Part shown: in pieces, positions 657 to 35,850 of the stretch
Layout: each line of letters begins with the position of its first letter
Numbering within the stretch: position 1 is the first letter of the stretch
Virus record (IMG/VR): IMGVR_UViG_3300032177_000038
Span: 1-35,850 of that record
Length of the DNA stretch: 35,850 bases
Origin: a virus
Direction: 5' to 3' (one strand)
Translations under genes and position numbers: made by a program
Notes under the pieces: generated by a model
Database searches by the model: none
Told to the model about the DNA's origin: nothing
Seen by the model: the letters and a program-made list of their open reading frames with translations, nothing else

Positions 657-1217
657 TTAAACGTCATAGTTTTCGCTAATGTAGTCCATCATTTGATACC
701 ATATTTCCACATCCCGTTGGTCACGAGATGGATTCTCCAATGGAAATAAACCCCCTCTACCATCTACTTGGTAATCTCGATCAACAAATTTCCTAATAAC
801 TATACTATTAAATTTTTTCTTTTGCTCACCATTTTCATTACTGGTATATTTTTGTAGTTTTAGATTATCAATAAATAACCAAAACCATAATTTAAATTTA
901 CTGCCTTTAGTATAATCAAATAAAATGAAATCCATTCTGCCAGCTAATGCTATTAGCATTTCCAAAACTGTGCACGGTCCTAATAAAGCATCTTCTAAGA
1001 GATCAAAATCTTGCTGATCAATAAACTGATTTCTAAGTGTAAGACCGTCTTCAACTCGATTATCATCGTTTGGAATATGGCAAACAAAAGGGAAAGACTG
1101 GAGTTCAAAGATGAAGTCTTTTAATCTTGAAGACTTTCTTTCTTCTATTTGATCATAAAGCCAATCAAAATATATCTGTTCAACCTTCCCGTTCGTCTTC
1201 AGTATCTTCATCATCAT
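657..1217 (-). CDS. Conserved phage protein of unknown function, 186 residues
   Basis: The frame stays open upstream to 1322, but the cluster of ATGs at 1217/1214/1211 with an AAGG about 9 nt before is the likely start, giving a 38-nt overlap with the preceding gene. The protein has features I associate with a family widespread in Firmicutes phages: a CTVLEMLIALAGR segment near the middle, F-W and Trp-rich residues, a REYxxDGRGGLFPL-like segment (here DRDYQVDGRGGLFPLEN) and a C-terminal EIWYQMMDYI motif. It is soluble, with no membrane segment. No biochemical role is known to me. It is transcribed directly after the membrane-anchored 229-residue protein, and family members often travel together. 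Confidence 0.75.
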   Translation of the reverse strand: MMMKILKTNGKVEQIYFDWLYDQIEERKSSRLKDFIFELQSFPFVCHIPNDDNRVEDGLTLRNQFIDQQDFDLLEDALLGPCTVLEMLIALAGRMDFILFDYTKGSKFKLWFWLFIDNLKLQKYTSNENGEQKKKFNSIVIRKFVDRDYQVDGRGGLFPLENPSRDQRDVEIWYQMMDYISENYDV

Positions 1218-1869
1218 CAGCAGTAACCTTTTTTCCCTTTCTTCGGGTTTTGGCCTTAGTCTCTTTTTTGGCTGTTCCCTCTGACATACCCATAACAAAT
1301 ATTGAATAACTATTATGGACACGAGTTATCTCATAATCCACCCCAGTATTTTCATTCCTCACATAGACAATGTCAGGATCATCAGATTCCTCGCCAAAAT
1401 GAAGATGAATATTTGCCCCGAACAACCTGTTAGGATCGTCAATGATCTCTTCTTGAGCATCCGCAAAGGTAGTGTCTTCTTCGTAGTATGCTATCGGTTC
1501 TTTGGCAGTAGCTCGATTCCTTTCATACTCCTCGGCAGTAATAATCCTGATTTTGTCTGCTTTGATATTACGCTTCTTATTAGGTTCTTCACTAATTGAA
1601 GAAGTGTATGGCTTTACAAGTTCCGCGAGTTCCCCCTTTGCATATTTGGTGTAATCCTTTTGTTTTGCAACTTGAACTTCAGTTGGTCCACCACTATCTG
1701 CCTTTCCTTCGTACACTTCTTTTAGCCATGCATCCTCTTCCAACTCCTCATTTCGTTTTTCAAGTTGGTTAACAATTAAACCCCCTAGAAAATATCCGAT
1801 AACTCCACCAGCAAGACCACCAGCGGCTATCAGACCAAGACGTCTAATCACAATCATATTCGTATCCAT
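1180..1869 (-). CDS. Membrane-anchored acidic conserved phage protein
   Basis: 229 residues. Residues 9-34 form one N-terminal transmembrane helix rich in Gly (GLIAAGGLAGGVIGYFLGG), followed by a long charged cytoplasmic-type domain. The centre carries ITAEEYERN, an acidic YYEEDTTFADAQEEIID segment and VYVRNENTGVDYEITR, a pattern I recognise from conserved phage proteins of unknown function. The tail is Lys-rich then Asp/Glu-rich. The start ATG 1869 has AAAGGAG 9 nt upstream. The gene overlaps its downstream neighbour by 38 nt. The helix with small-residue spacing could mediate oligomerisation. That is inference only. Confidence 0.75.
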   Translation of the reverse strand: MDTNMIVIRRLGLIAAGGLAGGVIGYFLGGLIVNQLEKRNEELEEDAWLKEVYEGKADSGGPTEVQVAKQKDYTKYAKGELAELVKPYTSSISEEPNKKRNIKADKIRIITAEEYERNRATAKEPIAYYEEDTTFADAQEEIIDDPNRLFGANIHLHFGEESDDPDIVYVRNENTGVDYEITRVHNSYSIFVMGMSEGTAKKETKAKTRRKGKKVTADDDEDTEDEREG

Positions 1870-1945
1870 ATTCCCATTCTCCTTTTACTATTCTTCCTTT
1901 ATAGTGACCATTGTCATACGTGTATATATCTGGATCTCTTTCCAT
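1844..1945 (-). CDS. Possible 33-residue ORF, or readthrough extension of the upstream gene
   Basis: The frame translates as MERDPDIYTYDNGHYKGRIV and so on to a TAG at 1844-1846, overlapping the next gene by 26 nt. It looks protein-like (Y-D-N-G-H-Y, then W-E-Y-G-Y-E-Y). No ribosome binding site precedes ATG 1945. The same frame is open back to the TGA that ends the 308-residue protein at 1985, adding 13 codons. So this may be either an independently started micro-protein or a 46-codon extension made by TGA suppression. Confidence 0.35.
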   Translation of the reverse strand: MERDPDIYTYDNGHYKGRIVKGEWEYGYEYDCD

Positions 1946-1984
1946 TTTTTCACGGATAGGCGCATCGTAAATTAGCGCCCTCAG

Positions 1985-2911
1985 TCATATCAGATCATAC
2001 ACATTCCCATCAACATTGAAGTTGAGAAAGAACGGCTGAACCATGGCATCTCGTGGATCTTCCTTCTCTTCATTTATTGGATCGTCAATACCCATATTCA
2101 CATATTGATCGTTATTGGGATTGTGAGGATTGTATCCCTTAACCCAGCCAACTACGGCACCGGCCCTGGTTCGCGGAAGTCCCAAGTCATCCAAAATTTC
2201 ATTCATAAATATATGACTACGAATATTCAGTCGGTCATTAGCGTATCGCTGAATACTTCGTAATGCGGTAAGATTCATATCATAATTTCTTTTAAACTGA
2301 GTGGCAGTTTCTTCGCTGAATACAAAAGAATATGGCGCAATGTCTTCAGTGCCAAGAACCTTTTTAACGATTTCTTTTTCTTTTCCTTTTGCATTCGTTT
2401 CTAGAACTTTAATTTCTTTTTGTCCGAAACGAAGTTCTTTATCCGCATTTTCTCCGTATTCATCACGGACACGTTGCCGATACTGCTTAAAACTCGCATC
2501 TACTAACTTGTAGGCTGCAGCTAAAGCAGTATTACGCTTGCTCAGAATATTATGAGATCCTACGATCAAGGCGATCGAAAAGCCAGTGACTGCAATAGCC
2601 GGCATATATAATTTTGCTATTTCAACACCGGTTTTGATATAAACAAGGGCTGTATCCCGCTTTGCATCCGCGTCCGAATAATCTTCCTCACTAGAAACAG
2701 TTCTTGTTACATTTATGGTATCAAGAATTTCTTTTGCTTCTTTTGTAACTTCTGTAACTTTCAACGTGGCCTTGCAAGCAAGGACTGTGCCTACTACAAC
2801 ACCCACTACACCTACTCCTAGTAGGATTTCTGGGCTTTTCTTACTTAAGATTAAACCCGTTCGTCCTAAGGAGTTCGTAGCCATAATTTTTACACTACTC
2901 AGACTGATCAT
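1985..2911 (-). CDS. Two-TM phage membrane protein, DUF6353-like (copy 1)
   Basis: 308 residues. Two predicted membrane helices lie at about residues 29-47 (EILLGVGVVGVVVGTVLACKA) and 101-118 (PAIAVTGFSIALIVGSH), followed by NTALAAAYKLVDASFKQYRQRV, a signature-like helix, and a soluble C-terminal half ending FFLNFNVDGNVYDLI. The layout matches a paralogue at 7876-8652, which shares SPxIL-G-GV, the RNxALA motif and the Tyr-Arg helix. I recall this pattern as the phage family DUF6353. Function unknown. ATG 2911 is preceded by AAAGGAG with a 9-nt spacer and overlaps the previous gene by 17 nt. Confidence 0.8.
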   Translation of the reverse strand: MISLSSVKIMATNSLGRTGLILSKKSPEILLGVGVVGVVVGTVLACKATLKVTEVTKEAKEILDTINVTRTVSSEEDYSDADAKRDTALVYIKTGVEIAKLYMPAIAVTGFSIALIVGSHNILSKRNTALAAAYKLVDASFKQYRQRVRDEYGENADKELRFGQKEIKVLETNAKGKEKEIVKKVLGTEDIAPYSFVFSEETATQFKRNYDMNLTALRSIQRYANDRLNIRSHIFMNEILDDLGLPRTRAGAVVGWVKGYNPHNPNNDQYVNMGIDDPINEEKEDPRDAMVQPFFLNFNVDGNVYDLI

Positions 2912-3116
2912 TTTCAGTTTCTCCTTTTATAATTACTTCTTTATTTGTATTCTTAATTGATTCCACACAACCATTAGGTCCAGCAAGTTGATACGCAATT
3001 TCCGCTGCCTCAGCAAAAGAATCTGCTGCTATTAAAGTATTGAACTTAGAAATTTGAAAAATATTATTACCTTTTCCATCATATCCTTTTGCCCTGTACA
3101 AAAGGTACCGTTTCAT
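2895..3116 (-). CDS. Nested internal start: 73-residue C-terminal protein
   Basis: An AAAAGGAG ribosome binding site at 3121-3128 sits 4 nt before ATG 3116 inside the longer frame. The spacing and sequence equal those of the other well-supported small genes here. The product MKRYLLYRAKGYDGKGNNIF.. has its own natural N-terminus. Whether the cell makes the long form, the short form or both cannot be settled from sequence. Confidence 0.5.
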   Translation of the reverse strand: MKRYLLYRAKGYDGKGNNIFQISKFNTLIAADSFAEAAEIAYQLAGPNGCVESIKNTNKEVIIKGETENDQSE

Positions 3117-3272
3117 TGTTCTCCTTTTCAATTCAACGTTCACATCGTAAACCGTAGTGTTTCCATCTATGGAATAATTAATTACAACTTCGTCTCCATT
3201 TAGCAAGAGGCGAGTCTCGTCGAAAACAATTTTGTTATCTTCAAAGTGAAATTTAATATTCTTTTCTGTCAT
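2895..3272 (-). CDS. Hypothetical protein, possibly two genes fused in frame
   Basis: 125 residues from ATG 3272, which has AAGGA 5 nt upstream. A second ATG in the same frame at 3116 is preceded by a perfect AAAAGGAG, so residues 53-125 (MKRYLLYRAKGYDGKG..) could be made as a separate 73-residue protein. The second half has an alternation suggesting a small beta/alpha domain (KFNTLIAADSFAEAAEIAYQ). The first half is beta-rich and acidic. Neither half is recognised. The gene lies just downstream of the structured element at 3293-3388. Confidence 0.65.
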   Translation of the reverse strand: MTEKNIKFHFEDNKIVFDETRLLLNGDEVVINYSIDGNTTVYDVNVELKRRTMKRYLLYRAKGYDGKGNNIFQISKFNTLIAADSFAEAAEIAYQLAGPNGCVESIKNTNKEVIIKGETENDQSE

Positions 3273-3292
3273 TATCATCCTTATAATATAAA

Positions 3293-3388
3293 GCCAGCAG
3301 TCCCTGACATTCGCAGGCATTTTACCATTTGTTCTGTGGGGGGAAAACTCGTTCCATCATTTGGTGGTTAAAAGAACATCCTGCTGGC
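3293..3388 (-). other. Closed-stem structured RNA-like element
   Basis: On the minus strand GCCAGCAG at one end pairs perfectly with CTGCTGGC at the other (8 bp, GC-rich in an AT-rich region), enclosing 80 nt. Inside are two further helices: GTTCT..AGAAC carrying a CCATC/GGTGG-type hairpin, and CCTG..CAGG with a 7-nt loop. It starts 8 nt after the stop of the gene ending at 3396 and stops 20 nt before the next start. There is no clean U-run after the stem, so it is not an ordinary terminator. It does not fit a tRNA. Confidence 0.45.
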
Positions 3389-3395
3389 CTTATAA

Positions 3396-4043
3396 CTATT
3401 TTGGCAATGCCTTAGGAACTGGAAGATCTATGACATAACCATCTCTAACCCGTCGCGTTTGAGCATCACGAAGATTTCTCCAACCGTAATTTCGATCGGT
3501 ATATTCATCAGGAAGGCCAACAAGTTCAAGAAATTCTGAGACAGTTACTTCGTTGTATTGATCATATATATCAAACATACTCCGAATAACATCTTCAGCC
3601 TCTTCTCGAGTTGGAAGAAGGACATCATCTGAATCAAATCTTGATCTTCCATAAACTCGTTCAGAACGTCGTTCTCGGTCATAACCTCCTCGATCCCTAT
3701 CCCTATCCCGATCTCGGTCGTAATAGTTAGTATAACTCACACGAGGACTTACACGATCTCTATCTCGCTTTCGACTTTTTGGTTCTCCAAATAAGATCAT
3801 ATCACTACCATTATTAATCATATCGGATAACGTGTTCTTAGCTGCAGGGATTAGAATGTCAAAAAGAATATAAGTTCCTACAACCTTTAATGTACCACTG
3901 AGTATATTATCAAAAAAGGTTTTCTTCCTTACAATCCTTTTCCCTGTTGCAACCTGCTTAATAATCTTTTTAGATTCTTCTTGAGGTTCTTCTCTTTTTT
4001 CACTGCGAGAATTACTAGGAAATTCCTCTACTTCATCTGTCAT
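3396..4043 (-). CDS. Conserved phage protein with RD repeats, unknown function
   Basis: 215 residues. An acidic N-terminus (EKREEPQEESKK) leads to a conserved hydrophobic segment around residues 55-70 (VGTYILFDILIPAAKN) and DMINNGSDMILFGEP. A linker of Arg-Asp repeats follows (RDRDRDRDR at about 110-118). The C-terminal domain carries EEAEDVIRSMFDIYDQYNEV, GLPDEYTDRNYGW and DGYVIDLPVPKALP. I recognise this order, including the final D-G-Y-x-x-x-L-P-K-A-L-P, from a family common in phages of Gram-positive bacteria. No function is established to my knowledge. The start is supported by AAAGGAG 7 nt before ATG 4043. Confidence 0.8.
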   Translation of the reverse strand: MTDEVEEFPSNSRSEKREEPQEESKKIIKQVATGKRIVRKKTFFDNILSGTLKVVGTYILFDILIPAAKNTLSDMINNGSDMILFGEPKSRKRDRDRVSPRVSYTNYYDRDRDRDRDRGGYDRERRSERVYGRSRFDSDDVLLPTREEAEDVIRSMFDIYDQYNEVTVSEFLELVGLPDEYTDRNYGWRNLRDAQTRRVRDGYVIDLPVPKALPK

Positions 4044-5341: not shown

Positions 5342-5370
5342 GTTTTCTCCTTTCAAGAAACCATCATAGA

Positions 5371-5406
5371 TAAAAAATTAAGCACTATGTTTCCATAATG
5401 CTTAAT
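5371..5406 (-). terminator. Rho-independent terminator after the 5417-5692 gene
   Basis: On the minus strand a 13-bp stem (ATTAAGCATTATG with CATAGTGCTTAAT, one G-U pair) closes a GAAA tetraloop and runs straight into TTTTTTA. It lies 10 nt after the stop codon of the 91-residue membrane protein. Its loop and outline match the terminator at 7573-7608. Confidence 0.85.
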
Positions 5407-5416
5407 CTTTTTATTT

Positions 5417-5692
5417 CTAACTTGTCATGGTCGAAATTGACCCCGGCATCGGCAACGGTTCTAAGTCGGTAAAAACACCGACAAGACTCGCACCATAGTC
5501 AGCTGCCTCACCCGCAACTAAGCCAGCAATAATACCCTTTCCTAACGCGAATATAACCTTGTTTATCTTGGTCATACTCTCGGTTGGAACAATATTATTA
5601 ATGGCTGCAGCCACGACGGCAGACACAGCAATACCGCAGGCGAGCCCGACGATCACCTTTACTACAGCAACCGTTTTCTGTTTCTTTGTCAT
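5417..5692 (-). CDS. Small membrane protein, 91 residues (moron cassette 1)
   Basis: Begins MTKKQKTVAVVKVIVGLACG. A hydrophobic Gly/Ala/Val-rich helix spans about residues 8-32, and a second at about 48-62 (VIFALGKGIIAGLVAGEAADYGASL). The start ATG 5692 has AAGGAG 8 nt upstream. It sits alone between a CTCG-N16-TATAAT promoter-like element (5717-5759) and its own terminator (5371-5406). Its N-terminus resembles the 61-residue protein at 7623-7808 (MTPKTIATIKVGAVVVGAVAG). The family is common in phages and has no known function to me. Confidence 0.75.
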   Translation of the reverse strand: MTKKQKTVAVVKVIVGLACGIAVSAVVAAAINNIVPTESMTKINKVIFALGKGIIAGLVAGEAADYGASLVGVFTDLEPLPMPGSISTMTS

Positions 5693-5716
5693 TTTCAATT
5701 CTCCTTTTTAAATTAG

Positions 5717-5759
5717 AATTTTTATAGTATTCTATTATAACCCATGTTTTTTGTACGAG
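5717..5759 (-). promoter_or_regulatory. Shared promoter element, copy 1
   Basis: On the minus strand: CTCG, 16 nt including an A6 run and CATG, then TATAAT, followed by AGAATACTATA. The -10 lies about 40 nt before the start codon of the 91-residue gene. A dyad TATAGTA-TTC-TATTATA (one mismatch) overlaps the -10. Four other copies have the same 16-nt spacing. No good TTGACA is present at -35. Confidence 0.7.
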
Positions 5760-5764
5760 TTGAG

Positions 5765-5929
5765 TTATCCGAAGACTAGAATAACTTTCATCTTATGGGT
5801 CAGGAGAAAAGTTCCAATAACCAGACCTCCTGTAATAAGAACTGTTTTACCGATTGGGGCCGGTGTGTTAAAAGTATTTTTTGCCATGGTGGAAAACTCT
5901 TCGACAGTTTTCTTAATCCAGTTCATCAT
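5765..5929 (-). CDS. Single-pass small membrane protein, 54 residues
   Basis: MMNWIKKTVEEFSTMAKNTF is followed by one membrane helix (VLITGGLVIGTFLL) and a short basic tail. ATG 5929 shares its A with the stop TGA of the upstream gene (TGATG), and GGAGG lies 6 nt upstream. The N-terminal 20 residues could be an amphipathic helix. Unrecognised. It is the last gene before promoter copy 1. Confidence 0.65.
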   Translation of the reverse strand: MMNWIKKTVEEFSTMAKNTFNTPAPIGKTVLITGGLVIGTFLLTHKMKVILVFG

Positions 5930-6048
5930 CATTCACCTCCACATTCCACATGTTGCTCGCCATCCACGTCGTAAAGAACCGTGGTTTCGCCATTCGAATA
6001 AGTTGGGCCATTATCTGGTTCGTATTCCTCATCAGGATCCTTTATCAT
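5929..6048 (-). CDS. Acidic micro-protein, 39 residues
   Basis: Translation gives MIKDPDEEYEPDNGPTYSNG followed by ETTVLYDVDGEQHVECGGE. AGGAG lies 6 nt before ATG 6048, and the stop overlaps the next start. The product is strongly acidic with no hydrophobic segment. The last codons themselves encode the ribosome binding site of the next gene. Unrecognised. Confidence 0.6.
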   Translation of the reverse strand: MIKDPDEEYEPDNGPTYSNGETTVLYDVDGEQHVECGGE

Positions 6049-6057
6049 TTCATTCTC

Positions 6058-6207
6058 CTAATCTCTTAGAGTCTTAAGCCAACGAATAACTTCCATCCAT
6101 TTTTCATATTCTTGACGATTCTTCTCGTTTAGATGAGCCTCATCATAACTAGGCTTAACTTTACTAATTGCATCTATTGCCATAGTAATCATCATATTTT
6201 TTGTCAT
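6058..6207 (-). CDS. Small helical protein, 49 residues
   Basis: MTKNMMITMAIDAISKVKPS then YDEAHLNEKNRQEYEKWMEVIRWLKTLRD. The sequence is charged and predicted mostly helical. AAGGTG lies 4 nt before ATG 6207. Its stop TAG overlaps the binding site of the next gene. Unrecognised. Confidence 0.6.
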   Translation of the reverse strand: MTKNMMITMAIDAISKVKPSYDEAHLNEKNRQEYEKWMEVIRWLKTLRD

Positions 6208-6219
6208 TTAACACCTTAT

Positions 6220-6330
6220 TCAGCGAATGGGTAGAATGTCGATAATATAGGTCATCCACACCACCACAATTATCGACATTATAATAATGCTTATTATCAA
6301 GCACACACCACGCCCTGGTCCCCGTCCCAT
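6220..6330 (-). CDS. Single-pass small membrane protein, 36 residues
   Basis: MGRGPGRGVCLIISIIIMSI continues IVVVWMTYIIDILPIR: a basic, Gly-rich N-terminus and one long beta-branched hydrophobic helix. AAGGAGG lies 7 nt before ATG 6330, one of the best binding sites in the window. Too short for family assignment. Confidence 0.65.
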   Translation of the reverse strand: MGRGPGRGVCLIISIIIMSIIVVVWMTYIIDILPIR

Positions 6331-6358
6331 CTTGGTGCCTCCTTATGGATGTAATACT

Positions 6359-6751
6359 CTATTTATTGACTAGCGGGAAGTAGAATGTAATGGGGTAATA
6401 ACTAAAAAAGGCATATTCATCCGGAATTACGAACTCAACTCCGTCAATCTGGGCTGAGATAACACGATATACTCCTGGCCCAAAGGATGGCAATACATTT
6501 TTATAAATAGCTGGACATTCGGCACTCCCCTGACCTTGATAAATGAGGGGTATTGTTGCAACTCGACGTGGATATGCTTCTACTTTCTCAATTGTTATTG
6601 CGCCAGTCTCCATTGTTGAATAACATGGATCCCAGATTGTGAATATCCCGTTTTTAACCTCGTAAAAGAAGGGAACCCCCATTACTACTCCCATCAACAT
6701 ACTTGCGATCATTACGATCATGAATAGAAAACCTAATATTTTGCTTTTCAT
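6359..6751 (-). CDS. Secreted or membrane-anchored protein, 130 residues
   Basis: The start ATG 6751 has AAGGAG 4 nt upstream; the frame remains open further but that stretch is the structured element at 6779-6861. Residues 2-26 (MKSKILGFLFMIVMIASMLMGVVMGV) are a signal peptide or membrane anchor. The rest is beta-rich and presumably outside the membrane, with two cysteines (DPCYST and ECPAIY) that could form a disulphide. A phage protein with this layout could be a surface-exposed exclusion lipoprotein-like factor, but there is no lipobox. Unrecognised. Confidence 0.65.
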   Translation of the reverse strand: MKSKILGFLFMIVMIASMLMGVVMGVPFFYEVKNGIFTIWDPCYSTMETGAITIEKVEAYPRRVATIPLIYQGQGSAECPAIYKNVLPSFGPGVYRVISAQIDGVEFVIPDEYAFFSYYPITFYFPLVNK

Positions 6752-6778
6752 TTTTCTCCTTTTTCTCATACAATTGGT

Positions 6779-6861
6779 CTGGGCCTGGTGGGAAACGATC
6801 CCACTGGGAAACGACTTCCGGAAAACGAATCCACGCAACCGCCCAATTGGGTCAGGCCCAG
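6779..6861 (-). other. GC-rich multi-hairpin RNA-like element
   Basis: On the minus strand CTGGGCCTG and CAGGCCCAG (9-bp perfect pair) enclose four hairpins: CCCAATTGGG, then three related ones GGA..TCC, GGAA..TTCC and GTGGGA..TCCCAC, each with TCGT in or beside its loop. It begins 17 nt after the stop of the HicA-like gene and ends 27 nt before the next start codon, so it forms the leader of the secreted-protein gene. There is no U-run. The last hairpin plus closing stem resemble a tRNA T-arm and acceptor, but no anticodon arm or consensus T-loop is present. Confidence 0.5.
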
Positions 6862-6877
6862 ATAAATTTGATTCTGT

Positions 6878-7180
6878 CTAGATCAACAGAGAAAGAACCG
6901 TGTTTACACCATCCAGAACAAGATTATCTGAACCTGTGAAAGCACAGTAGGCTGAATAGACAATAACAAGAAGGCCGGCAATCTTAAATGCCTTCCAGAT
7001 CTTACAGCCAAGGCCACGACCCATCTCACGATCACAGACAGTTTGATGGGAACCATCTGGTAGTTCAACATCGACATGGTCACCTTTACCACGACGAACA
7101 TTGCAACCAGCTTGTTCAGCTACCTTAATAGCTTCCGCCCCATCTTCGAACCAGGTTTTACCAGAATTACCCTTTCCCAT
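6878..7180 (-). CDS. HicA-like dsRNA-binding-fold protein with membrane segment
   Basis: 100 residues from ATG 7180 (GGAGG, 6-nt spacer). Residues 16-68 follow the HicA plan: helix, then AGCNVRRGKGDHVDVELPDG, then TVCDREMGRGLGCKIWKAFK. The G-D-H (His35) takes the place of the catalytic G-S/D-H of HicA mRNA interferases. Unlike HicA it continues into a hydrophobic segment (residues 67-82, IAGLLVIVYSAYCAF) and a second weak one at the C-terminus. No HicB follows. The 62-residue gene just upstream overlaps it by 14 nt. HicA-type RNA cleavage at the membrane is a hypothesis from the fold only. Confidence 0.65.
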   Translation of the reverse strand: MGKGNSGKTWFEDGAEAIKVAEQAGCNVRRGKGDHVDVELPDGSHQTVCDREMGRGLGCKIWKAFKIAGLLVIVYSAYCAFTGSDNLVLDGVNTVLSLLI

Positions 7181-7355
7181 TGAAAGCCTCCATCGTGGAG
7201 ACAATTTCCTCCACAGTTTCAACTTTCACGTTCTTTGTGAAATTCATGTTATTGGCGGCCATGATAAGATCAATAAGCCCGACAAAAAGAATCTTAAGAT
7301 CTTCAGACATATTTTCAACAGAAATTTCAATGGTTGTAACGTTATTATTATTCAT
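7167..7355 (-). CDS. Small protein overlapping the HicA-like gene
   Basis: 62 residues, MNNNNVTTIEISVENMSEDL onward, predicted helical, with VEKMS/LKILFVGLIDLIM as a hydrophobic helix and KVETVEEIVSTMEAFNGKG at the end. ATG 7355 has AAGGAG 8 nt upstream. The 14-nt overlap with the HicA-like gene means they are translated together, an arrangement typical of toxin-antitoxin pairs, but the sequence shows no HicB or DNA-binding motif. Confidence 0.6.
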   Translation of the reverse strand: MNNNNVTTIEISVENMSEDLKILFVGLIDLIMAANNMNFTKNVKVETVEEIVSTMEAFNGKG

Positions 7356-7367
7356 AGTCGATTCTCC

Positions 7368-7451
7368 TTAATCGAATATAAAATCTACAAATATCAATAC
7401 GCATATGCCTAGGATTGCGACACAAGTCCCAACCAATTCTATGGCACGCAT
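7368..7451 (-). CDS. Possible 27-residue membrane peptide
   Basis: MRAIELVGTCVAILGICVLI then FVDFIFD: one hydrophobic helix with acidic end. The stop TAA overlaps the binding site of the next gene and the start overlaps the previous micro-gene by 13 nt. No clear binding site precedes ATG 7451, so expression would need coupling. Low confidence. Confidence 0.4.
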   Translation of the reverse strand: MRAIELVGTCVAILGICVLIFVDFIFD

Positions 7452-7537
7452 CGCAGAAAATACACACCAACGCATAAAGATATTACCATGATAAACATTA
7501 TTACCCATAACATTCCTCGTTTTGCGTCATCGCGCAT
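7439..7537 (-). CDS. Single-pass membrane micro-protein, 32 residues
   Basis: MRDDAKRGMLWVIMFIMVIS then LCVGVYFLRCVP: a charged N-terminus and one membrane helix. ATG 7537 lies 2 codons after an in-frame GTG at 7543; AAGGTGGGTG is centred about 8 nt before the GTG, so either may be used. This gene is first after the terminator at 7573-7608. Confidence 0.5.
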   Translation of the reverse strand: MRDDAKRGMLWVIMFIMVISLCVGVYFLRCVP

Positions 7538-7572
7538 ACTCACTTTACACCCACCTTTTCTACAATGATTTT

Positions 7573-7608
7573 AAAAAAGAATAGGCACCATGTTTCCATG
7601 ATGCCCAT
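7573..7608 (-). terminator. Rho-independent terminator after the 7623-7808 gene
   Basis: Minus strand: ATGGGCATCATG, GAAA loop, CATGGTGCCTAT (12 bp with two G-U pairs), then TCTTTTTT. It lies 15 nt after the stop of the 61-residue gene and has the same loop and ATG/CAT stem top as the terminator at 5371-5406, suggesting common descent. Confidence 0.85.
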
Positions 7609-7622
7609 TCAGCACTAAAGGA

Positions 7623-7808
7623 CTACAATGCAGCTTGCGCTGCTGTGTCCGCGACCTCGACAATCTCACCACCACTCGGAAGGTAGCCAAGTCGGTAGAG
7701 TACATAGCCAACTACTACTGCGCCGGCTACGGCTCCTACTACTACGGCCCCAACCTTTATGGTTGCGATTGTCTTGGGGGTCATCTTCGCAGTCAGTTTT
7801 TCTAACAT
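7623..7808 (-). CDS. Small membrane protein, 61 residues (moron cassette 2)
   Basis: MLEKLTAKMTPKTIATIKVG leads to a Gly/Ala/Val helix (AVVVGAVAGAVVVGYVLYRLGYL) and an acidic, Ala-rich tail. The start ATG 7808 has AAGGAG 6 nt upstream. The frame opens earlier at 7841, but that part is promoter copy 2. The TPKTIATIKVGAVVVGAVAG segment resembles the protein at 5417-5692, so the two are probable paralogues. It stands alone between promoter and terminator. Confidence 0.7.
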   Translation of the reverse strand: MLEKLTAKMTPKTIATIKVGAVVVGAVAGAVVVGYVLYRLGYLPSGGEIVEVADTAAQAAL

Positions 7809-7837
7809 TTTAGTTCTCCTTTTTTCAAATATATGCT

Positions 7838-7866
7838 TCATTATAATCCGTGTTTTTTATACGAGG
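7838..7866 (-). promoter_or_regulatory. Shared promoter element, copy 2
   Basis: Minus strand: CTCG, 16 nt with an A6 run, then TATAAT. It begins 10 nt after the stop of the DUF6353-like gene and its -10 lies about 32 nt before the start of the 61-residue gene. It lacks the TATAGTA dyad half seen in copies 1, 3 and 4. Confidence 0.65.
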
Positions 7867-7875
7867 ACTGATAAA

Positions 7876-8652
7876 TTATCCTCCTTTAAAAAATACCGGT
7901 TTAATTTTATACTCGATCACGATGCACGGAATGCCAGTATCTGTGATTTTAGAAGTGAAATGAATATCGAGCATCCCTTCATCGAATGTCCAACCTATTT
8001 CTTCTCCCCCCTTAATTCTTACTATACCCAACTCGTCGTAGAAAGAATTTAGCGAGAGATACATATCGCCGCCAAGAAGATCGTGATTAAGGTCATTCTG
8101 AGATTTACGGACCTTTTCCATGTCACTCTTGAAATATCTTCCACTCCATGAGTCGTAGAACAGTACTTCTCCTTTTCCAGTAATAATAACTTCATTTTTT
8201 GAAACCGGATTTTGATCAAGATGATCCTGCACAAGGGCATCGTGGATCTTTTCTTCCTTGTTTCGGCCAATAACTTCTATCACCTTTTCCTGGTACTCTC
8301 TCAGGGCGGCCTCAGACACGGTAAATAAGCCTGCTAGAGCCGCGTTACGGCGCATATTGATACTATGGGCCATAATAAAGCATGTAACCGTTCCTAGACC
8401 CACTAATGCGGCTGGGATATAGCACTTCCAGGTAACCTTGACAACATCCAATTTATCTAGGGATATGTCAGTGTTGCCTTTTGGATCTCTTTTTAGCTTC
8501 TCTTCCTCCAAAAGGTACAACGCTTTGGGGGTTGCTCGGACCGCTAATATAACAGTTGTCGCAATCCCCGTAACCCCTAAACCAGTCAATATGGCTGGGG
8601 ATTCCCGCTCAAGACCTCGTAATATGTTTTTAGCAATAGTTGTTGCCGTCAT
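7876..8652 (-). CDS. Two-TM phage membrane protein, DUF6353-like (copy 2)
   Basis: 258 residues from ATG 8652, where AAAGGAG lies 5-7 nt upstream. Membrane helices at about residues 20-38 (AILTGLGVTGIATTVILAV) and 79-97 (IPAALVGLGTVTCFIMAHS), then MRRNAALAGLFTVSEAALREYQEKV, match the protein at 1985-2911 segment by segment. The soluble C-terminal half is beta-rich (GEVLFYDSWSGRYF, EEIGWTFDEGMLDIHF). Function unknown; two diverged paralogues in one phage suggest that they may form a hetero-oligomer or have separate partners. Confidence 0.8.
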   Translation of the reverse strand: MTATTIAKNILRGLERESPAILTGLGVTGIATTVILAVRATPKALYLLEEEKLKRDPKGNTDISLDKLDVVKVTWKCYIPAALVGLGTVTCFIMAHSINMRRNAALAGLFTVSEAALREYQEKVIEVIGRNKEEKIHDALVQDHLDQNPVSKNEVIITGKGEVLFYDSWSGRYFKSDMEKVRKSQNDLNHDLLGGDMYLSLNSFYDELGIVRIKGGEEIGWTFDEGMLDIHFTSKITDTGIPCIVIEYKIKPVFFKGG

Positions 8653-8678
8653 TTCCTCTCCTTTCAAGATTTAAATTA

Positions 8679-8780
8679 TTAGGAATGTGCTCGAAGAAAT
8701 CGGACTAGGATCCAAACAATCCACAAGCCGCCGGTCAGAAAGATCATGGCCACATCGAATAATACACCAACTGTTTTCAT
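8679..8780 (-). CDS. Single-pass membrane micro-protein, 33 residues (cassette 3)
   Basis: MKTVGVLFDVAMIFLTGGLW then IVWILVRFLRAHS: one membrane helix with a positively charged C-terminus. ATG 8780 is preceded by AAAGGAG with a 6-nt spacer. It is the first gene after promoter copy 3 and lies 26 nt upstream of the DUF6353-like gene, with no terminator between, so the two are probably co-transcribed. Confidence 0.65.
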   Translation of the reverse strand: MKTVGVLFDVAMIFLTGGLWIVWILVRFLRAHS

Positions 8781-8856
8781 TTCATTCTCCTTTCAAGAGA
8801 TTTTTGAAAAAAATAGAATGTATGATTTAATAAGATTATAAATCTTAGTCAATTAA

Positions 8857-8895
8857 ATTATAGTATTCTATTATAGCATATGTTTTTTCTGCGAG
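8857..8895 (-). promoter_or_regulatory. Shared promoter element, copy 3
   Basis: Minus strand: CTCG, 16 nt with A6 and CATATG, then an extended TGC-TATAAT followed by AGAATACTATA. It lies immediately downstream of the terminator at 8897-8936. The leader to the start at 8780 is about 90 nt and includes a 6-bp hairpin AAGATT-TAT-AATCTT (8833-8847). Confidence 0.7.
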
Positions 8896-8896
8896 G

Positions 8897-8936
8897 AGAA
8901 AAAAGAAAAAGAGAAGCCTATGCAGCTTCCCTCTTT
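8897..8936 (-). terminator. Rho-independent terminator after the 8941-9219 gene
   Basis: Minus strand: AGGGAAGC, loop TGCATAG, GCTTCTCT, followed by TTTTTCTTTTTT. The stem starts within 10 nt of the stop codon of the 92-residue gene, and the T-tract abuts promoter copy 3. Confidence 0.8.
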
Positions 8937-8940
8937 AAAA

Positions 8941-9219
8941 TTATCTCCAAATCCTCTTTCCCGTGTCGAAAATTCGCCCATCATATGTGCGTTCACACAC
9001 AGCATACGACTTTTCGCCCTTGTGCAATAGTCCTTCGCCTTTCTTCTTCACATCCCGCAATAACGCCTCAGTTTTCACTTTTCCCGTCTTTGTCAGGGTT
9101 ACAATTCCCTGAACAATTTCGGGCGTGTACAACATGATAGCCGCCATCGCGAAAGTGACAAAGAGCAGCCCAGCAATCGCCTTCGGACTCCCAGTATTCG
9201 TGTAACTTTGTGTTCTCAT
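8941..9219 (-). CDS. Small membrane protein, 92 residues (moron cassette 4)
   Basis: One membrane helix at about residues 13-35 (AIAGLLFVTFAMAAIMLYTPEI) is followed by a basic cytoplasmic-type tail with Lys-rich VKKKGEGLLHKGEKSY and an Arg-ended YDGRIFDTGKRIWR. ATG 9219 has AAAGGAG 8 nt upstream. It lies alone between promoter copy 4 and its terminator at 8897-8936. No family recognised. Confidence 0.7.
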   Translation of the reverse strand: MRTQSYTNTGSPKAIAGLLFVTFAMAAIMLYTPEIVQGIVTLTKTGKVKTEALLRDVKKKGEGLLHKGEKSYAVCERTYDGRIFDTGKRIWR

Positions 9220-9237
9220 TTTCGTTTCTCCTTTAGA

Positions 9238-9280
9238 AATTTTTATAGTATTCTACTATAGCATGTGTTTTTTATACGAG
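9238..9280 (-). promoter_or_regulatory. Shared promoter element, copy 4, with perfect operator-like dyad
   Basis: Minus strand: CTCG, 16 nt with an A6 run and ACATGC, then TATAGT. The -10 overlaps a perfect inverted repeat TATAGTA-TTC-TACTATA (9244-9260), which could be a repressor site. The element begins immediately after the stop codon of the GMP reductase gene. Confidence 0.7.
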
Positions 9281-9281
9281 G

Positions 9282-10175
9282 TTATTTCTCTATCTCATAA
9301 TTTCCATTTAATTCTTTTAAATTTTTTACTCCCGTGTAATAGCAAGTTGTTTCTAAGGCATCTTTAATTTCAGTAAGTAACGCATAAATAGTTCTATTTA
9401 CTTCCACAATCTCCGATTTCCCTTCTATGAAAAATTCTGTTTTACCATTACGTCGTAAAGCGGCAGAACTTGCCATACCACTATATATTCCATCATTTTC
9501 TGCCTCATAGGTTCCTGCAACCATTCGGCCCAGCATTACATAATCTGCTCCCAAGGCAAAACCCTTTGCTATATCGCCCGTGTTACGGAATCCACCATCG
9601 GCAATGATTTTAATATCATTTCCATATTCTTTCTTTATCTCAGGAATAGCCAAATAACTAGGTTTTCCAACTCCTGTTACCGTCCTAGTCAAACAGACAC
9701 TTCCTGAACCTATTCCTACACGAATATAATTTATTCCATATTCTAAATAACGACCAGCAGCTTCTACAGTGCAAATATTACCACTGATTACATCCCATCC
9801 CATAGTTTTTAAATCTCTGCAAAATTCAAGATTGCGTTTAGTGTCCCCATGAGCAACATCTAAACAAGCAACTTTATAATTCTTAAGATTTAAAATATCT
9901 TCCAATTCTGCTAGTTGCATTGACGGCGATACGGCTATTCCGCCATATCTTGTAGCGTCTTTCAAAGTTATATAGTCGCAATATCTATGATGTATGCCAA
10001 GGCAACCAAAAATTCTCATAGATTTTAGCATGATTATTTTTGATACCGTATCCATTGGAGATGAAATAATCGGCAATTTCAAAGTCATATCAAAAAAATT
10101 GGTTGTTAAATTGATTTCTTTATGCCCAATTTCAGAATATTGAGGAACAATATAAACTTTATCATACTCTCCCAT
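9282..10175 (-). CDS. guaC: GMP reductase
   Basis: 297 residues, a compact IMPDH/GMPR-family barrel without CBS domains. It converts GMP to IMP and ammonia with NADPH. The N-terminus has LPIISSPMDTV. The catalytic loop VGIGSGSVCLTRTVTGVG places the nucleophile at Cys161 with Thr163. ADGGFRNTGDIAKGFALGAD and MLGRMVAGT bind phosphate and the nucleotide. GMP reductase rather than IMP dehydrogenase is supported by YSGMASSAALRR (GMPR: YGMSSxxAM) and the end TTCYYTGVKNLKEL, and by the lack of an Arg-Tyr flap. It is about 30-50 residues shorter than cellular GuaC. ATG 10175 has AAAGGA 8 nt upstream. Moving guanine toward adenine nucleotides would suit an AT-rich phage genome (inference). Confidence 0.88.
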   Translation of the reverse strand: MGEYDKVYIVPQYSEIGHKEINLTTNFFDMTLKLPIISSPMDTVSKIIMLKSMRIFGCLGIHHRYCDYITLKDATRYGGIAVSPSMQLAELEDILNLKNYKVACLDVAHGDTKRNLEFCRDLKTMGWDVISGNICTVEAAGRYLEYGINYIRVGIGSGSVCLTRTVTGVGKPSYLAIPEIKKEYGNDIKIIADGGFRNTGDIAKGFALGADYVMLGRMVAGTYEAENDGIYSGMASSAALRRNGKTEFFIEGKSEIVEVNRTIYALLTEIKDALETTCYYTGVKNLKELNGNYEIEK

Positions 10176-10227
10176 ATTACATTTCCTTTCATTTTTCCAA
10201 AAGGTCCCCCGGGGTATTTTTTAGAGA

Positions 10228-10257
10228 AAAAAGAGGAGTCCATGTTCGGACTCCCCC
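10228..10257 (-). terminator. Rho-independent terminator after the 10272-10541 gene
   Basis: Minus strand: GGAGTCC, loop GAACAT, GGACTCC, then TCTTTTTT; the plus strand also ends in a T-run, so it may act in both directions. It separates the small membrane gene from the GMP reductase gene. A CCCCGGGG palindrome lies just beyond, at 10207-10214. Confidence 0.85.
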
Positions 10258-10271
10258 TTTTTAAAAACTCT

Positions 10272-10541
10272 CTATAATCGACCCCTTGCGATAAATCCTA
10301 ACGCTTTAGAAGCGATAGGATGGAGCTGCTCATAATTGAGTATGAGCAGAATTCCTGCGATGTTGGCCGCAACTAGAAGAATCGTATCATATTCCACAAT
10401 CCGAGAAGGTTTCTTACTTCTCGCATCACACAATATGATTAGATTATCCACCGCTTTGCCATACTCTTCCGAATCCGGCTTATGCTCTCCCATGAATTTC
10501 AGCAAATCATCTATCGTTTTATCGATCGGATTTTTATGCAT
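10272..10541 (-). CDS. Small conserved phage membrane protein, 89 residues (cassette 5)
   Basis: Begins MHKNPIDKTIDDLLKFMGEH, continues with PDSEEYGKAVDNLIILCDAR and ends in one membrane segment (TILLVAANIAGILLILNYEQ) and IASKALGFIARGRL. I recognise this pattern (PDSEEY..VDNL..L, then LLVxANIxGILxILxYE, then SKALGF) from phages of Gram-positive hosts; function unknown. ATG 10541 has AAAGGAG 6 nt upstream. It is bracketed by promoter copy 5 and its own terminator. Confidence 0.8.
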   Translation of the reverse strand: MHKNPIDKTIDDLLKFMGEHKPDSEEYGKAVDNLIILCDARSKKPSRIVEYDTILLVAANIAGILLILNYEQLHPIASKALGFIARGRL

Positions 10542-10565
10542 TAGTTCTCCTTTCAAGAGTTTTCT

Positions 10566-10593
10566 TCATTACAACCCATGTTATTACTGCGAG
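10566..10593 (-). promoter_or_regulatory. Shared promoter element, copy 5 (diverged)
   Basis: Minus strand: CTCG, 16 nt including AACATGGG, then TGTAAT. The A-run is shorter and the -10 has one change, but the CTCG to -10 spacing is again exactly 16 nt. It lies between the holin gene and the 89-residue membrane gene. Confidence 0.55.
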
Positions 10594-10614: not shown

Positions 10615-11082
10615 TTAAGCCGGAATTTCTTGGGTAGCCTTTTTATATTGATTCGTACTAATACCAAGAAATATCCCTAAGAACGTAGTTACCAATGCAA
10701 TAGTACCCACAATCTGCTCAGAATATGGCAAACCCCAAATCGCTGCCATTGCAAAATATAACGTGCCAAGGGCGGGAAGTACTATCTGGGCAATCCAGTA
10801 GAAAATATCATAAGCACTACTAGTCATAGTAAAAATAGTTTTTGATTGAATGAGTTGGATTCTAGGCATAGCACCTTGACTAACCATTTTCTTATTATAC
10901 TGGATAGTACTAATTCCTAAGAGAGCACCAAGAAAAGCATCAACTGCTAAAATAGTACCCACAATCTGCTCAGAATATGGCAAACCCCAAATCGCTGCTA
11001 AACCAAAATACAGACTAGCTGCTGACGGAAGTAGATATTGAGCCGTGAATTTAAAAACATTATAAAGTTTATCTGGTAACAT
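10615..11082 (-). CDS. Tandemly duplicated r1t-type holin
   Basis: 155 residues made of two copies of a roughly 75-residue r1t holin module. Copy 1: residues 8-65 (FKFTAQYLLPSAASLYFGLAAIWGLPYSEQIVGTI..GALLGISTIQY). Copy 2: residues 92-149 (YWIAQIVLPALGTLYFAMAAIWGLPYSEQIVGTI..GIFLGISTNQY). Each has two membrane helices, four in all. Canonical r1t holins have one module. Holins form the membrane lesion that times lysis. A 48-bp exact repeat links the two halves. ATG 11082 has AAGGAG with an 8-nt spacer. No endolysin follows. Confidence 0.85.
   Translation of the reverse strand: MLPDKLYNVFKFTAQYLLPSAASLYFGLAAIWGLPYSEQIVGTILAVDAFLGALLGISTIQYNKKMVSQGAMPRIQLIQSKTIFTMTSSAYDIFYWIAQIVLPALGTLYFAMAAIWGLPYSEQIVGTIALVTTFLGIFLGISTNQYKKATQEIPA
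10699..10746 (-). repeat. 48-bp exact direct repeat in the holin gene, copy B
   Basis: These 48 bases are identical to 10951-10998, 252 bp away (84 codons, in frame). They encode the AIWGLPYSEQIVGTI core of the second holin module. Identity this high beside diverged flanks suggests recent duplication or gene conversion of the pore segment. Confidence 0.9.
10951..10998 (-). repeat. 48-bp exact direct repeat in the holin gene, copy A
   Basis: Partner of the repeat at 10699-10746, encoding the same segment in the first holin module. Confidence 0.9.
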
Positions 11083-22573: not shown

Positions 22574-24331
22574 TTATTGTGCGCGCTCGATGACAAGAGC
22601 CGACTTAGGTATAGTCAAAGCACCAGAGCAACGAGTTTCGATCAAGTACTTGTACTGATTATAATCGATATCGAAATCATCGAACATACTTATAGCACCA
22701 CCCTTATCAGCGCCAATCGTGTAATCGAAGAGATTAACGATAATGCCAAGAAGATCATACTCAAGAGTATCAGTACGATGCAGACCTTCCATGATAGGAA
22801 CTTCAACAATCTTGGAAACACGAAGAGCAGCAGCAAGATCGGCTTCTGTCTTGTAAACACGATAGCCAAGACTGTCTTTGATCAGAAGCATTTCGGTCAA
22901 GAAACTGGGACTTGTAAACAAGGTTGGACTACCAGATCCTTTATAGTTAACACGTCCTAGAATAACCTTATCCATAACCTCTGCTGGGAGATCATCGGTC
23001 GCTGGAAGTTGCAACTTATGAGAATAAAGCGCATCATCTTTCCAGATTGGGCGAATGCAAGTTTCATCGATCTTATCTTCTGACATCGCTGCACGACCAT
23101 CACCCACCAATACTGCGCGAGCAATTTCCTCATCAAGCATTACACGCATTTCAGCCTTCAACCAGGCAACCACATCCAGATCAGTAATGTCAACAATATC
23201 ATTCCGATCAAGTTTTTGCTTCTTGTAAATCGTGGTTGGAGTGGTGGTTCGCTTTAACAAACCAAACACTTCGTCGTGCTTCTGAGCACCAGTGACATAG
23301 CCCATAGCCCTAGCAGTGTCAACAGTGATGTCGGCATAAACACTCTTAATACGAGAAAATGGAGTGTGCCGAGTTCCGTTAAGAACAGGAGCAACCCAAG
23401 TAGTTTCACGCTGAAGAAAGGATGGTGAATCCGCTAAAAGGTGAGCATCAGGAAATAGATAATCAATATTATCAATACCATAACTTCCAGCATGAGCGAT
23501 AAGAGACTGCTTAAGTGATCCATATTTGAATGCATCTCTAGCAACTTCCGCAAATTGATCGTGAGAAAGATAAATACGTTCTTTCTGAGATACCGAGCCG
23601 TCAAAAACATTGTTTTTCATTATCTTATTATCTCCTTCATCATTAGAATTATTAGATTTATCAGAATGTTCTGCAGAGGTATCTGTTTCATCTGCAGGGG
23701 TTTCACTATCAAGTACAGAACCTATAATGGCATAAACCGCAGTCTTCTGCTTTTTGTTAAGTGTATTAAAAACATCCTCAATAGTTTCGTTTTCACTATC
23801 AGCATGTTCAATAGAACTAACTGGTTTTTCTGGTGGCTTCTCTGGTAGTGTCTCTTCCTCTTTCTTTTCCAGTTCTAAACCAGTATAAATAATTGCTTCA
23901 ACGGAATCGATGTCATAAGTACCATCCGCGTGTTCAAAAGCTAAATTATCAATAACCGCCCCAGGATTTGCACCAGACATAACTAGACTAACTTCACGGA
24001 TCATACCATGGACGACATTCTTGGCCTTTTCAATTAATTGATTAGCAAAGATTGATAGAAAAGATACATCACCGTGCTCTACAAGGATCTTTCCATTCTT
24101 TCCATTCTCAGTGTCATTAAAAATACAATAAGCATATACTCCATCTTCACGATTTTCAAGTAATGCTTGACCAAGAACATTAGATAGTTCATTGTGCTGA
24201 TGTTGCCAAACCAATGGTACTGTTTGGCCATCATTGTCCTTAAATGCATCCTTAAGAATTACCCTTCCATCAGTGCACTTAAGACCGTTTTTAGTAGCAT
24301 AGCCACCAAAATCGTATTTAGATTTACTCAT
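22574..24331 (-). CDS. Prohead protease fused to HK97-type major capsid protein
   Basis: 585 residues in one frame. Residues 1-155 form an S78-type prohead protease: GRVILKDAFKDNDGQTVPLV, WQHQH with the catalytic His near 44, and REVSLVMSGANPGA with the catalytic Ser near 115. Residues 156-237 are an acidic linker with a scaffold-like helix (IEDVFNTLNKKQKTAVYAII). Residues 238-585 are the HK97-fold capsid protein (TRHTPFSRIKSVYADITVD, DVVAWLKAEMRVMLDEEIAR, FTSPSFLTEMLLIKD). A GAAGGAG lies 10-11 nt before an in-frame ATG at codon 238, which could allow extra capsid protein to be made alone. The start overlaps the portal stop (TAATG). Confidence 0.93.
   Translation of the reverse strand: MSKSKYDFGGYATKNGLKCTDGRVILKDAFKDNDGQTVPLVWQHQHNELSNVLGQALLENREDGVYAYCIFNDTENGKNGKILVEHGDVSFLSIFANQLIEKAKNVVHGMIREVSLVMSGANPGAVIDNLAFEHADGTYDIDSVEAIIYTGLELEKKEEETLPEKPPEKPVSSIEHADSENETIEDVFNTLNKKQKTAVYAIIGSVLDSETPADETDTSAEHSDKSNNSNDEGDNKIMKNNVFDGSVSQKERIYLSHDQFAEVARDAFKYGSLKQSLIAHAGSYGIDNIDYLFPDAHLLADSPSFLQRETTWVAPVLNGTRHTPFSRIKSVYADITVDTARAMGYVTGAQKHDEVFGLLKRTTTPTTIYKKQKLDRNDIVDITDLDVVAWLKAEMRVMLDEEIARAVLVGDGRAAMSEDKIDETCIRPIWKDDALYSHKLQLPATDDLPAEVMDKVILGRVNYKGSGSPTLFTSPSFLTEMLLIKDSLGYRVYKTEADLAAALRVSKIVEVPIMEGLHRTDTLEYDLLGIIVNLFDYTIGADKGGAISMFDDFDIDYNQYKYLIETRCSGALTIPKSALVIERAQ
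23618..23638 (-). promoter_or_regulatory. Internal ribosome binding site and start for free capsid protein
   Basis: Inside the fused protease-capsid gene the minus strand reads GAAGGAGA, 10 nt, ATG (23620-23618), exactly at the junction between linker and capsid domain. Spacing is long but workable. Initiation here would give a 348-residue capsid protein in the stoichiometric excess that an icosahedral shell needs. Confidence 0.55.
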
Positions 24332-35388: not shown

Positions 35389-35742
35389 TCATAGCCAGGA
35401 TCTAAGCCAAACATTTGCTACAACGATTTGAGCGAGTTTAAACGTACCTATTCCAATAAGCGTTCCAAGAACAACTTTTTTACCTGTACTATACGATTTC
35501 CACCCCTTAATATCTTTAATTTTTTCCTTTTTTACTTTGTTTACTCCAGCAGTAATTTTACCTTCCCATTTTTGTTCATCTTTCTGATATTTTTTATAAG
35601 CAGCATCGGTCATTACTCTAACCTTTTTTCCAGTTTTAGTAGTTATAACATGCGTGGGATAACTACCTCCACTTTCACCACCAGAACGACGTCCCCATTT
35701 CATACCCAAAACACCAACATGTTTTAATTCATCATTAGACAT
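35389..35742 (-). CDS. LGMKWG-motif phage protein
   Basis: 117 residues from ATG 35742 (AAAGGTGG 6 nt upstream; the in-frame GTG at 35751 is less likely). The opening MSNDELKHVGVLGMKWGRRS carries the H-x-G-V/I-L-G-M-K-W-G motif that occurs at ends of various phage structural and morphogenesis proteins in Firmicutes gut phages. A basic middle (KKEKIKDIKGWKSYSTGKK) leads to a membrane-like helix (VVLGTLIGIGTFKLAQIVVANV) at the C-terminus. The motif's role is not established. It precedes the terminase by 9 nt. Confidence 0.7.
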   Translation of the reverse strand: MSNDELKHVGVLGMKWGRRSGGESGGSYPTHVITTKTGKKVRVMTDAAYKKYQKDEQKWEGKITAGVNKVKKEKIKDIKGWKSYSTGKKVVLGTLIGIGTFKLAQIVVANVWLRSWL

Positions 35743-35743
35743 A

Positions 35744-35850
35744 TTAACCACCTTTTCCTAAAAGTAATGTTGGTATAATTTTTAGTGGAGCATCCCACAT
35801 CTTAGAATTCACTACCCTCTTTGGATCAAAACCACCATATTTATTAAACT
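35744..35850 (-). CDS. C-terminal end of an unidentified gene (cut by right edge)
   Basis: The frame is open from the right edge (first full codon at 35848) to TAA at 35744-35746, giving the last 34 residues, which end KMWDAPLKIIPTLLLGKGG. Its final codons provide the ribosome binding site of the next gene. Too little is visible to assign; being upstream of terL it could be a small terminase subunit or a structural gene. Confidence 0.5.
   Translation of the reverse strand, partial: FNKYGGFDPKRVVNSKMWDAPLKIIPTLLLGKGG

Follow-up and report, generated by a model that had tools for sequence, protein, structure and literature searches.

Which RNA polymerase (RNAP) reads the promoter-like element that recurs in the 35,850-nt virus record IMGVR_UViG_3300032177_000038 (positions 1 to 35,850; hereafter, the window)? 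The element, described in the original prediction as CTCG, exactly 16 nt, and then TATAAT or a one-base variant, occurs five times on the minus strand, each time before a gene for a small membrane protein, and these units had been taken for moron-like cassettes that might confer prophage traits on a host. As we argue below, the five sites are probably early promoters of a siphophage of the Lactococcus phage 1706 type, and would be read by the phage's own two-barrel RNAP rather than by the host RNAP with sigma-A.

An exact search of the window for CTCG-N16-TATAAT returns three matches, all on the minus strand, where shuffled sequences lead one to expect 0.08; allowing one mismatch in TATAAT adds two sites, at 9255-9280 (TATAGT) and 10568-10593 (TGTAAT), and all five have the 16-nt spacing. 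Both strands were also scored with a fuller consensus, TCGYA-nnA-WWWACA-N5-TATAAT-RR, to which exactly five places have 0 or 1 mismatches and every other position, on either strand, has at least 4. All five are intergenic and on the minus strand, as had been claimed, and the check for random matches inside genes came out in favor of the motif, with no decoys within genes of the window. Motif search and consensus scoring give the copies as CTCGCAGTAATAACATGGGTTGTAAT(GA) at 10568-10593 (1 mismatch to consensus; predicted to drive the gene at 10272-10541), CTCGTATAAAAAACACATGCTATAGT plus AGAATACTATAA at 9243-9280, CTCGCAGAAAAAACATATGCTATAAT plus AGAATACTATAA at 8858-8895, CTCGTATAAAAAACACGGATTATAAT(GA) at 7840-7865, and CTCGTACAAAAAACATGGGTTATAAT plus AGAATACTATAA at 5722-5759. 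The CTCG-containing box reads CTCGYA throughout the window, and enrichment of ACA-N5-TATARTR is confined to a spacing of 5 and to the minus strand. The A-run noted earlier between CTCG and the hexamer is likewise present, although both parts need redrawing: the A-run proves to be a conserved WWACA box, separated from the -10 by 5 nt, and CTCG opens a CGCA-type box. Judged as sigma-A promoters, four of the five sites have A at position 2 and T at position 6 of the -10 (the exception is TGTAAT at 10568-10593), none has TTGACA 16-18 nt before it, and a generic sigma-70 scan of the 5-11 kb region recovered 0 of the 5 with no excess over shuffles, in agreement with the earlier remark that no TTGACA stands at -35.

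An exact search of viral contigs for the full 38-nt window element gave no match, and the query was relaxed to the shared core. Relatives found through the neighboring DUF6353 gene carry CTCGCAnAAnTTACAnnnnnTATAAT, always with 16 nt. Scanning databases with the pattern CTCGYAnAAnWWACAnnnnnTATAAT yields at least 120 matching stretches in viral contigs of 32-60% GC content, typically just 5' of a ribosome-binding site, and 23 matches among bacterial and archaeal genomes totaling 257 Gb, which is about the chance level; the element is therefore virus-specific. Four of these 23 loci also encode the polymerase described below and look like phage contigs. The isolates among the matches belong to Gordonia cluster DJ, Tanis being one. 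Compared across phages, CTCG-N16-TATAAT is part of a larger predicted promoter, CGC(A/G)-N4-WWACA-N5-(-10 box)-G/A, and when the distance from WWACA to the -10 is varied from 0 to 12, a signal appears at 5 only.

The motif marks a single phage lineage, that of Lactococcus phage 1706, ReqiPepy6, and Gordonia cluster DJ. With this lineage the window shares a major capsid/protease fusion protein (22574-24331, minus strand), a DUF6353 pair, and collinear early genes, and by synteny we assign its phage to the 1706-type siphophages. The DUF6353 protein at 7876-8652 (minus strand; E 3.9e-79) is a predicted orthologue of Tanis gp48, and the minus-strand genes within 657-4043 are collinear with Tanis gp58, gp59 (DUF6353), gp60, and gp61; gene by gene, 8652-7897, 4028-3411, 2878-1988, 1545-1282, and 1196-660 are collinear with gp48, gp58, gp59, gp60, and gp61, respectively. 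The record has the appearance of a fragment rather than a complete genome. In relatives, the gene after the gp61-type gene encodes the primase-polymerase, and the window stops just short of the replication genes; because the fragment ends where the primase-polymerase would begin, we would expect this phage's RNAP gene to lie beyond its end, outside the record.

Every complete relative examined encodes a single-chain polymerase of about 900 residues near its right end, and the association with the motif can be followed in both directions. Starting from the motif, 28 of 29 motif-picked records of at least 40 kb encode the polymerase; none of 32 checked polymerase-negative motif contigs encodes the exonuclease that neighbors it, and because this neighboring gene is also absent, we regard these contigs as incomplete. 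Starting from the polymerase, ten named phages (from Gordonia, Rhodococcus, Streptomyces, Arthrobacter, Curtobacterium, and Lactococcus hosts, plus one salivary phage record) contain 77 WWACA-N5-TATARTR sites, all on the coding strand, and nine phages without the polymerase, most of them from the same host genera, contain 2 such sites in 593 kb. In 43 polymerase-bearing viral records, the polymerase strand has 247 sites and the other strand 4. Promoter and polymerase are also both present in four contigs assigned to bacterial metagenome-assembled genomes (L151, L159, L161, and L165, from Erysipelotrichaceae, Bacilli, Lachnospiraceae, and Bacillales); these look like phage contigs or prophages and hint at the hosts of the gut members.

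In Tanis, the enzyme is gp92, near the right end, annotated as an "RNA-dependent RNA polymerase" with a helix-turn-helix (HTH) domain. It carries the RNAP signature SGADFDGD (found in nearly all members, with SGADYDGD in two), a predicted HTH array at residues 36-113, and a C-terminal HTH. A single-sequence search of the PDB matched the HTH only and a profile search was uninformative, so that a fold search was required: residues 224-606 of the predicted model align with QDE-1 (Z 10.7, 244 residues, 5.5 Å), with plant RDR2, and with a P23-45-type gp64 (Z 9.9). The relatives' polymerase combines the DxDGD catalytic motif with a modeled double-psi beta-barrel fold, and on the strength of this model we identify the Tanis gp92/1706 gp75 family as single-chain two-barrel RNAPs of the QDE-1/P23-45 gp64 fold. 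The Tanis and 1706 polymerases, both members tested, match PHROG 4291 (E 0). Public records label this family "RNA-dependent RNA polymerase" or "HTH DNA-binding protein"; we think it more likely to be a two-barrel DNA-dependent RNAP, and the first label presumably stems from the likeness to QDE-1.

How might such an enzyme use the sites? Three elements with fixed spacing would make up the promoter: CGC(A/G) around -31, WWACA around -22 to -18, and a hexamer resembling a -10. Their likely readers are the polymerase's N-terminal HTH array and C-terminal HTH. A narrower assignment, of the C-terminal HTH to the CGCA box, had been considered since lactococcal phages are without that box, and was rejected: the lactococcal enzymes keep that HTH. 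Across the ten phages, the stretch from the tail/lysis genes to the primase-polymerase gene holds the sites, apart from a few further to the right, and no structural gene is preceded by one. The position of the sites in the presumed early region suggests a polymerase present from the start of infection, as are the virion RNAPs of N4, crAss-like phages, and P23-45. We propose that the virion may carry and inject the enzyme; that would account for promoters standing in the early region, with none ahead of the late structural genes.

Several observations weigh against this reading. No polymerase gene is found within the 35.85-kb window fragment. Across about 250 deposited phages, the capsid, primase-polymerase, and RNAP give nearly equal per-genus tallies; capsid and primase relatives in the phage collection are essentially the same phages, and no control set of polymerase-less near-relatives could be drawn from it. 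These genes are inherited as one set, and the polymerase therefore cannot be singled out by co-occurrence alone. Homologues of Tanis gp93 and gp58 are universal in the ten phages, and either could be a specificity factor; the gp93-type small protein (L171:39310-39558; 82 aa in Tanis, PHROG 4303), encoded directly downstream of the polymerase in Tanis and nine other phages, is a candidate accessory factor. The model is of moderate quality (predicted local distance difference test, 75; predicted template modeling score, 0.41), and Foldseek alone found no match better than E 1e-3. Packaging in the virion, which we consider about evenly balanced, has as its basis one annotation note (ReqiPepy6 gp106, "similar to Lactococcus phage 1706_gp75, structural protein") and an HxGxxRRSGRYPWGSG-like signature at the polymerases' N termini. 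Finally, the -10 is a perfect TATAAT in most members, and could be used by host sigma-A with a phage activator.

This last point leads to the main rival explanation, namely that host RNAP with sigma-A reads the -10, aided by a phage activator or sigma-appropriation factor that occupies the CGCA and WWACA boxes in place of a -35. Promoters that lack a -35 and carry a factor box near -30 are well known (T4 MotA and phi29 p4 work in this way), and both the small conserved proteins just named and other HTH proteins could supply the factor. We nevertheless consider this explanation unlikely. The -10 box is nearly fixed within a phage and differs between phages (TATAAT, TATAGT, TATTAT, or CTTTAT), while the spacing is invariant. 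A few phages that have the polymerase seemed to be without the motif. In one of them, Faecalibacterium phage FP_oengus, a repeat search gave GACGCGAAAAATACAGCCTCCTTTATGGAAGG, which keeps the CGCR-N4-WWACA-N5 frame with CTTTAT as its box in nearly all 13 sites (12 of 13 read CGCG-N15-TTTATG, at a single spacing only). The same frame carries CTTTAT, CTTAAT, or TATTAT in four further records of this kind (G005, G017, G023, and G026), and TATTAT stands at nine sites in G025, a fragment without the polymerase gene. Two phages of the same host species, Lactococcus lactis, use different boxes (TATAGT at 11 of 12 in 1706 versus TATAAT at 10 of 10 in P092; p 3e-5), and two Arthrobacter phages isolated on one strain, Mudcat and Gordon, have different upstream boxes (CGCG versus CGCA; p 0.015). 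The sigma-A -35 position shows no conservation in the relatives. Sigma-A flips and requires the A at -11 of a promoter; a CTTTAT box without that A, together with a box that is nearly fixed per phage and varies among phages sharing a host, fits phage-encoded machinery better than host sigma-A.

Downstream of the sites, the layout that the original prediction had described holds up, from the small membrane-protein gene after each promoter to the four terminators, and a single promoter type serving co-regulated promoter-gene-terminator units is supported. Each site lies in an intergenic gap 5' of a short open reading frame (ORF) with one strongly hydrophobic segment (5/5, from ORF calls and hydrophobicity, all on the minus strand). 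The products are of 89 aa with one transmembrane-like segment (10272-10541), 92 aa (8941-9219), 33 aa after a leader of about 89 nt (8679-8780), 61 aa (7623-7808), and 91 aa (5417-5692); after the site at 8870-8895, the 33-aa gene comes first and the DUF6353 gene follows. The hairpin-plus-T-run terminators, on the same strand, lie at 10222-10271 (-24.0 kcal/mol, z -5.2), 8896-8940, 7570-7622, and 5365-5416 (-20.3 kcal/mol, z -8.7), with folding energies of -15.5 to -24 kcal/mol that are better than those of shuffles. If the phage's own RNAP reads the promoters, they would fire these short terminator-bounded units and yield small membrane proteins as infection begins. In Lactococcus phages P092 and 1706 (early regions L214 and L219), some promoter copies are followed by tRNA-like sequences instead of ORFs.

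It is highly improbable that the units are morons, with host sigma-A promoters expressing prophage-conferred traits independently of the phage cycle. The promoter-gene-terminator layout with small membrane proteins would suit that idea, as would an integrase in at least one relative, but the sites have no sigma-70 match, the motif is virus-specific, and in lytic relatives the same units, at an identical map position, make up the early region. Indeed, they occupy that place in relatives that have only a few lysogeny genes or none at all (for example, Gordonia phage Tanis and Lactococcus phage 1706), as ordinary early region rather than as independent insertions between genes that are adjacent in relatives. 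Lysogeny of the window phage is possible, since FP_oengus carries an integrase. Just as hard to credit is the idea that the repeats serve not as promoters but as operators or at the RNA level, as repressor sites or leader elements: a partly palindromic sequence overlaps the -10 at three window sites and tRNA-like genes occur in the stretch after the motif in some relatives, but the repeats are strictly oriented with transcription, they follow terminators and precede ribosome-binding sites and ATGs, and their -10-like box is followed by purines, all of which speaks against it. The palindrome arises where AGAATACTATAA follows the -10, as it does in three of the five promoters (5722-5733, 8858-8869, and 9243-9254, minus strand); together they make an imperfect palindrome, TATARTA-gaa-TACTATA, a possible operator or initial-transcript element.

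Three other minus-strand genes of the window deserve mention. Between a terminator and the promoter at 9243-9280 lies a gene of the IMP dehydrogenase/GMP reductase family (9282-10175; PF00478, E 1.8e-54), without a promoter of the shared type of its own and an unusual cargo for a phage early region. At 10615-11082 is a gene for a 155-aa protein with a tandem-duplicated Dp-1-type holin domain (PF16938, two stretches). The ORF adjoining the terminase (35389-35751) contains NDELKHVGVLGMKWGRRSG, of the form HxGxxGMKWGxRR, which resembles the polymerase N-terminal signature HYGxxRRSGRYPWGSG; a packaging or processing signal shared by the two is possible.

A phage-encoded RNAP with its own promoters is an already-known type of system. 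The virion RNAPs of N4 and the crAss-like phages would share its working principle, an injected phage enzyme for early genes, if packaging applies here; N4 has a T7-like enzyme and hairpin promoters, and in the crAss-like phages the RNAP forms part of a giant virion protein. The RNAPs of P23-45 are single chains of the same two-barrel fold class, with distinct conserved phage promoters and a virion enzyme that transcribes pre-early genes; that virion RNAP, however, is fused to the tape measure protein, the promoters differ, and the RNAPs are not close in sequence (PMC10770324). YonO of SPbeta is another single-chain DNA-dependent RNAP from a phage of Gram-positive bacteria, with the catalytic aspartate triad of multisubunit RNAPs, but its targets are late genes, read from one operon start, and the sequence of its promoter was a matter left for further work (PMC5467207). 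SPbeta itself has neither a P0001-like match nor a motif array, with one promoter match at chance level only. Closest at hand, a 2022 announcement of Gordonia phage Vardy, from the Tanis-like cluster DJ, reported a 50-bp motif with five intergenic copies in the span of genes 39-55, an early region where membrane-protein genes and terminators abound, and read the conserved TATAAT as a sigma-70 -10; the motif was reported for one genome and connected neither with a polymerase, nor with further clusters or hosts, nor with a fixed CGCA-N4-WWACA-N5 geometry (PMC9671010). In our search of the published literature, we found no report that links the motif to the polymerase or extends it across hosts.

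It is thought that the ancestor of cellular RNA polymerases resembled the single-chain two-barrel RNAPs, and for most of these we know of no promoter. We tentatively extend the proposal, at somewhat below an even chance, to the whole group: in hundreds of phages whose Gram-positive hosts range from Streptomyces to Lactococcus and gut Clostridia, HTH-bearing two-barrel RNAPs may be packaged in the virion and may directly recognize a single tripartite promoter, CGCR-N4-WWACA-N5-hexamer, with no need of a sigma factor, its -10 imitating the host TATAAT but having shifted, along with the enzyme, to TATAGT, TATTAT, or CTTTAT. For about 250 deposited phages, among them culturable ones of Gordonia, Arthrobacter, Streptomyces, and Lactococcus, the candidate promoter can be written out base by base, and sigma-free promoter recognition is therefore directly testable. 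If the proposal is true, the start signals of a whole viral polymerase family, common to hundreds of phages of Gram-positive bacteria, would be identified; the pair would offer an orthogonal promoter and polymerase for Gram-positive hosts, and the early genes of many phages could be called from sequence.

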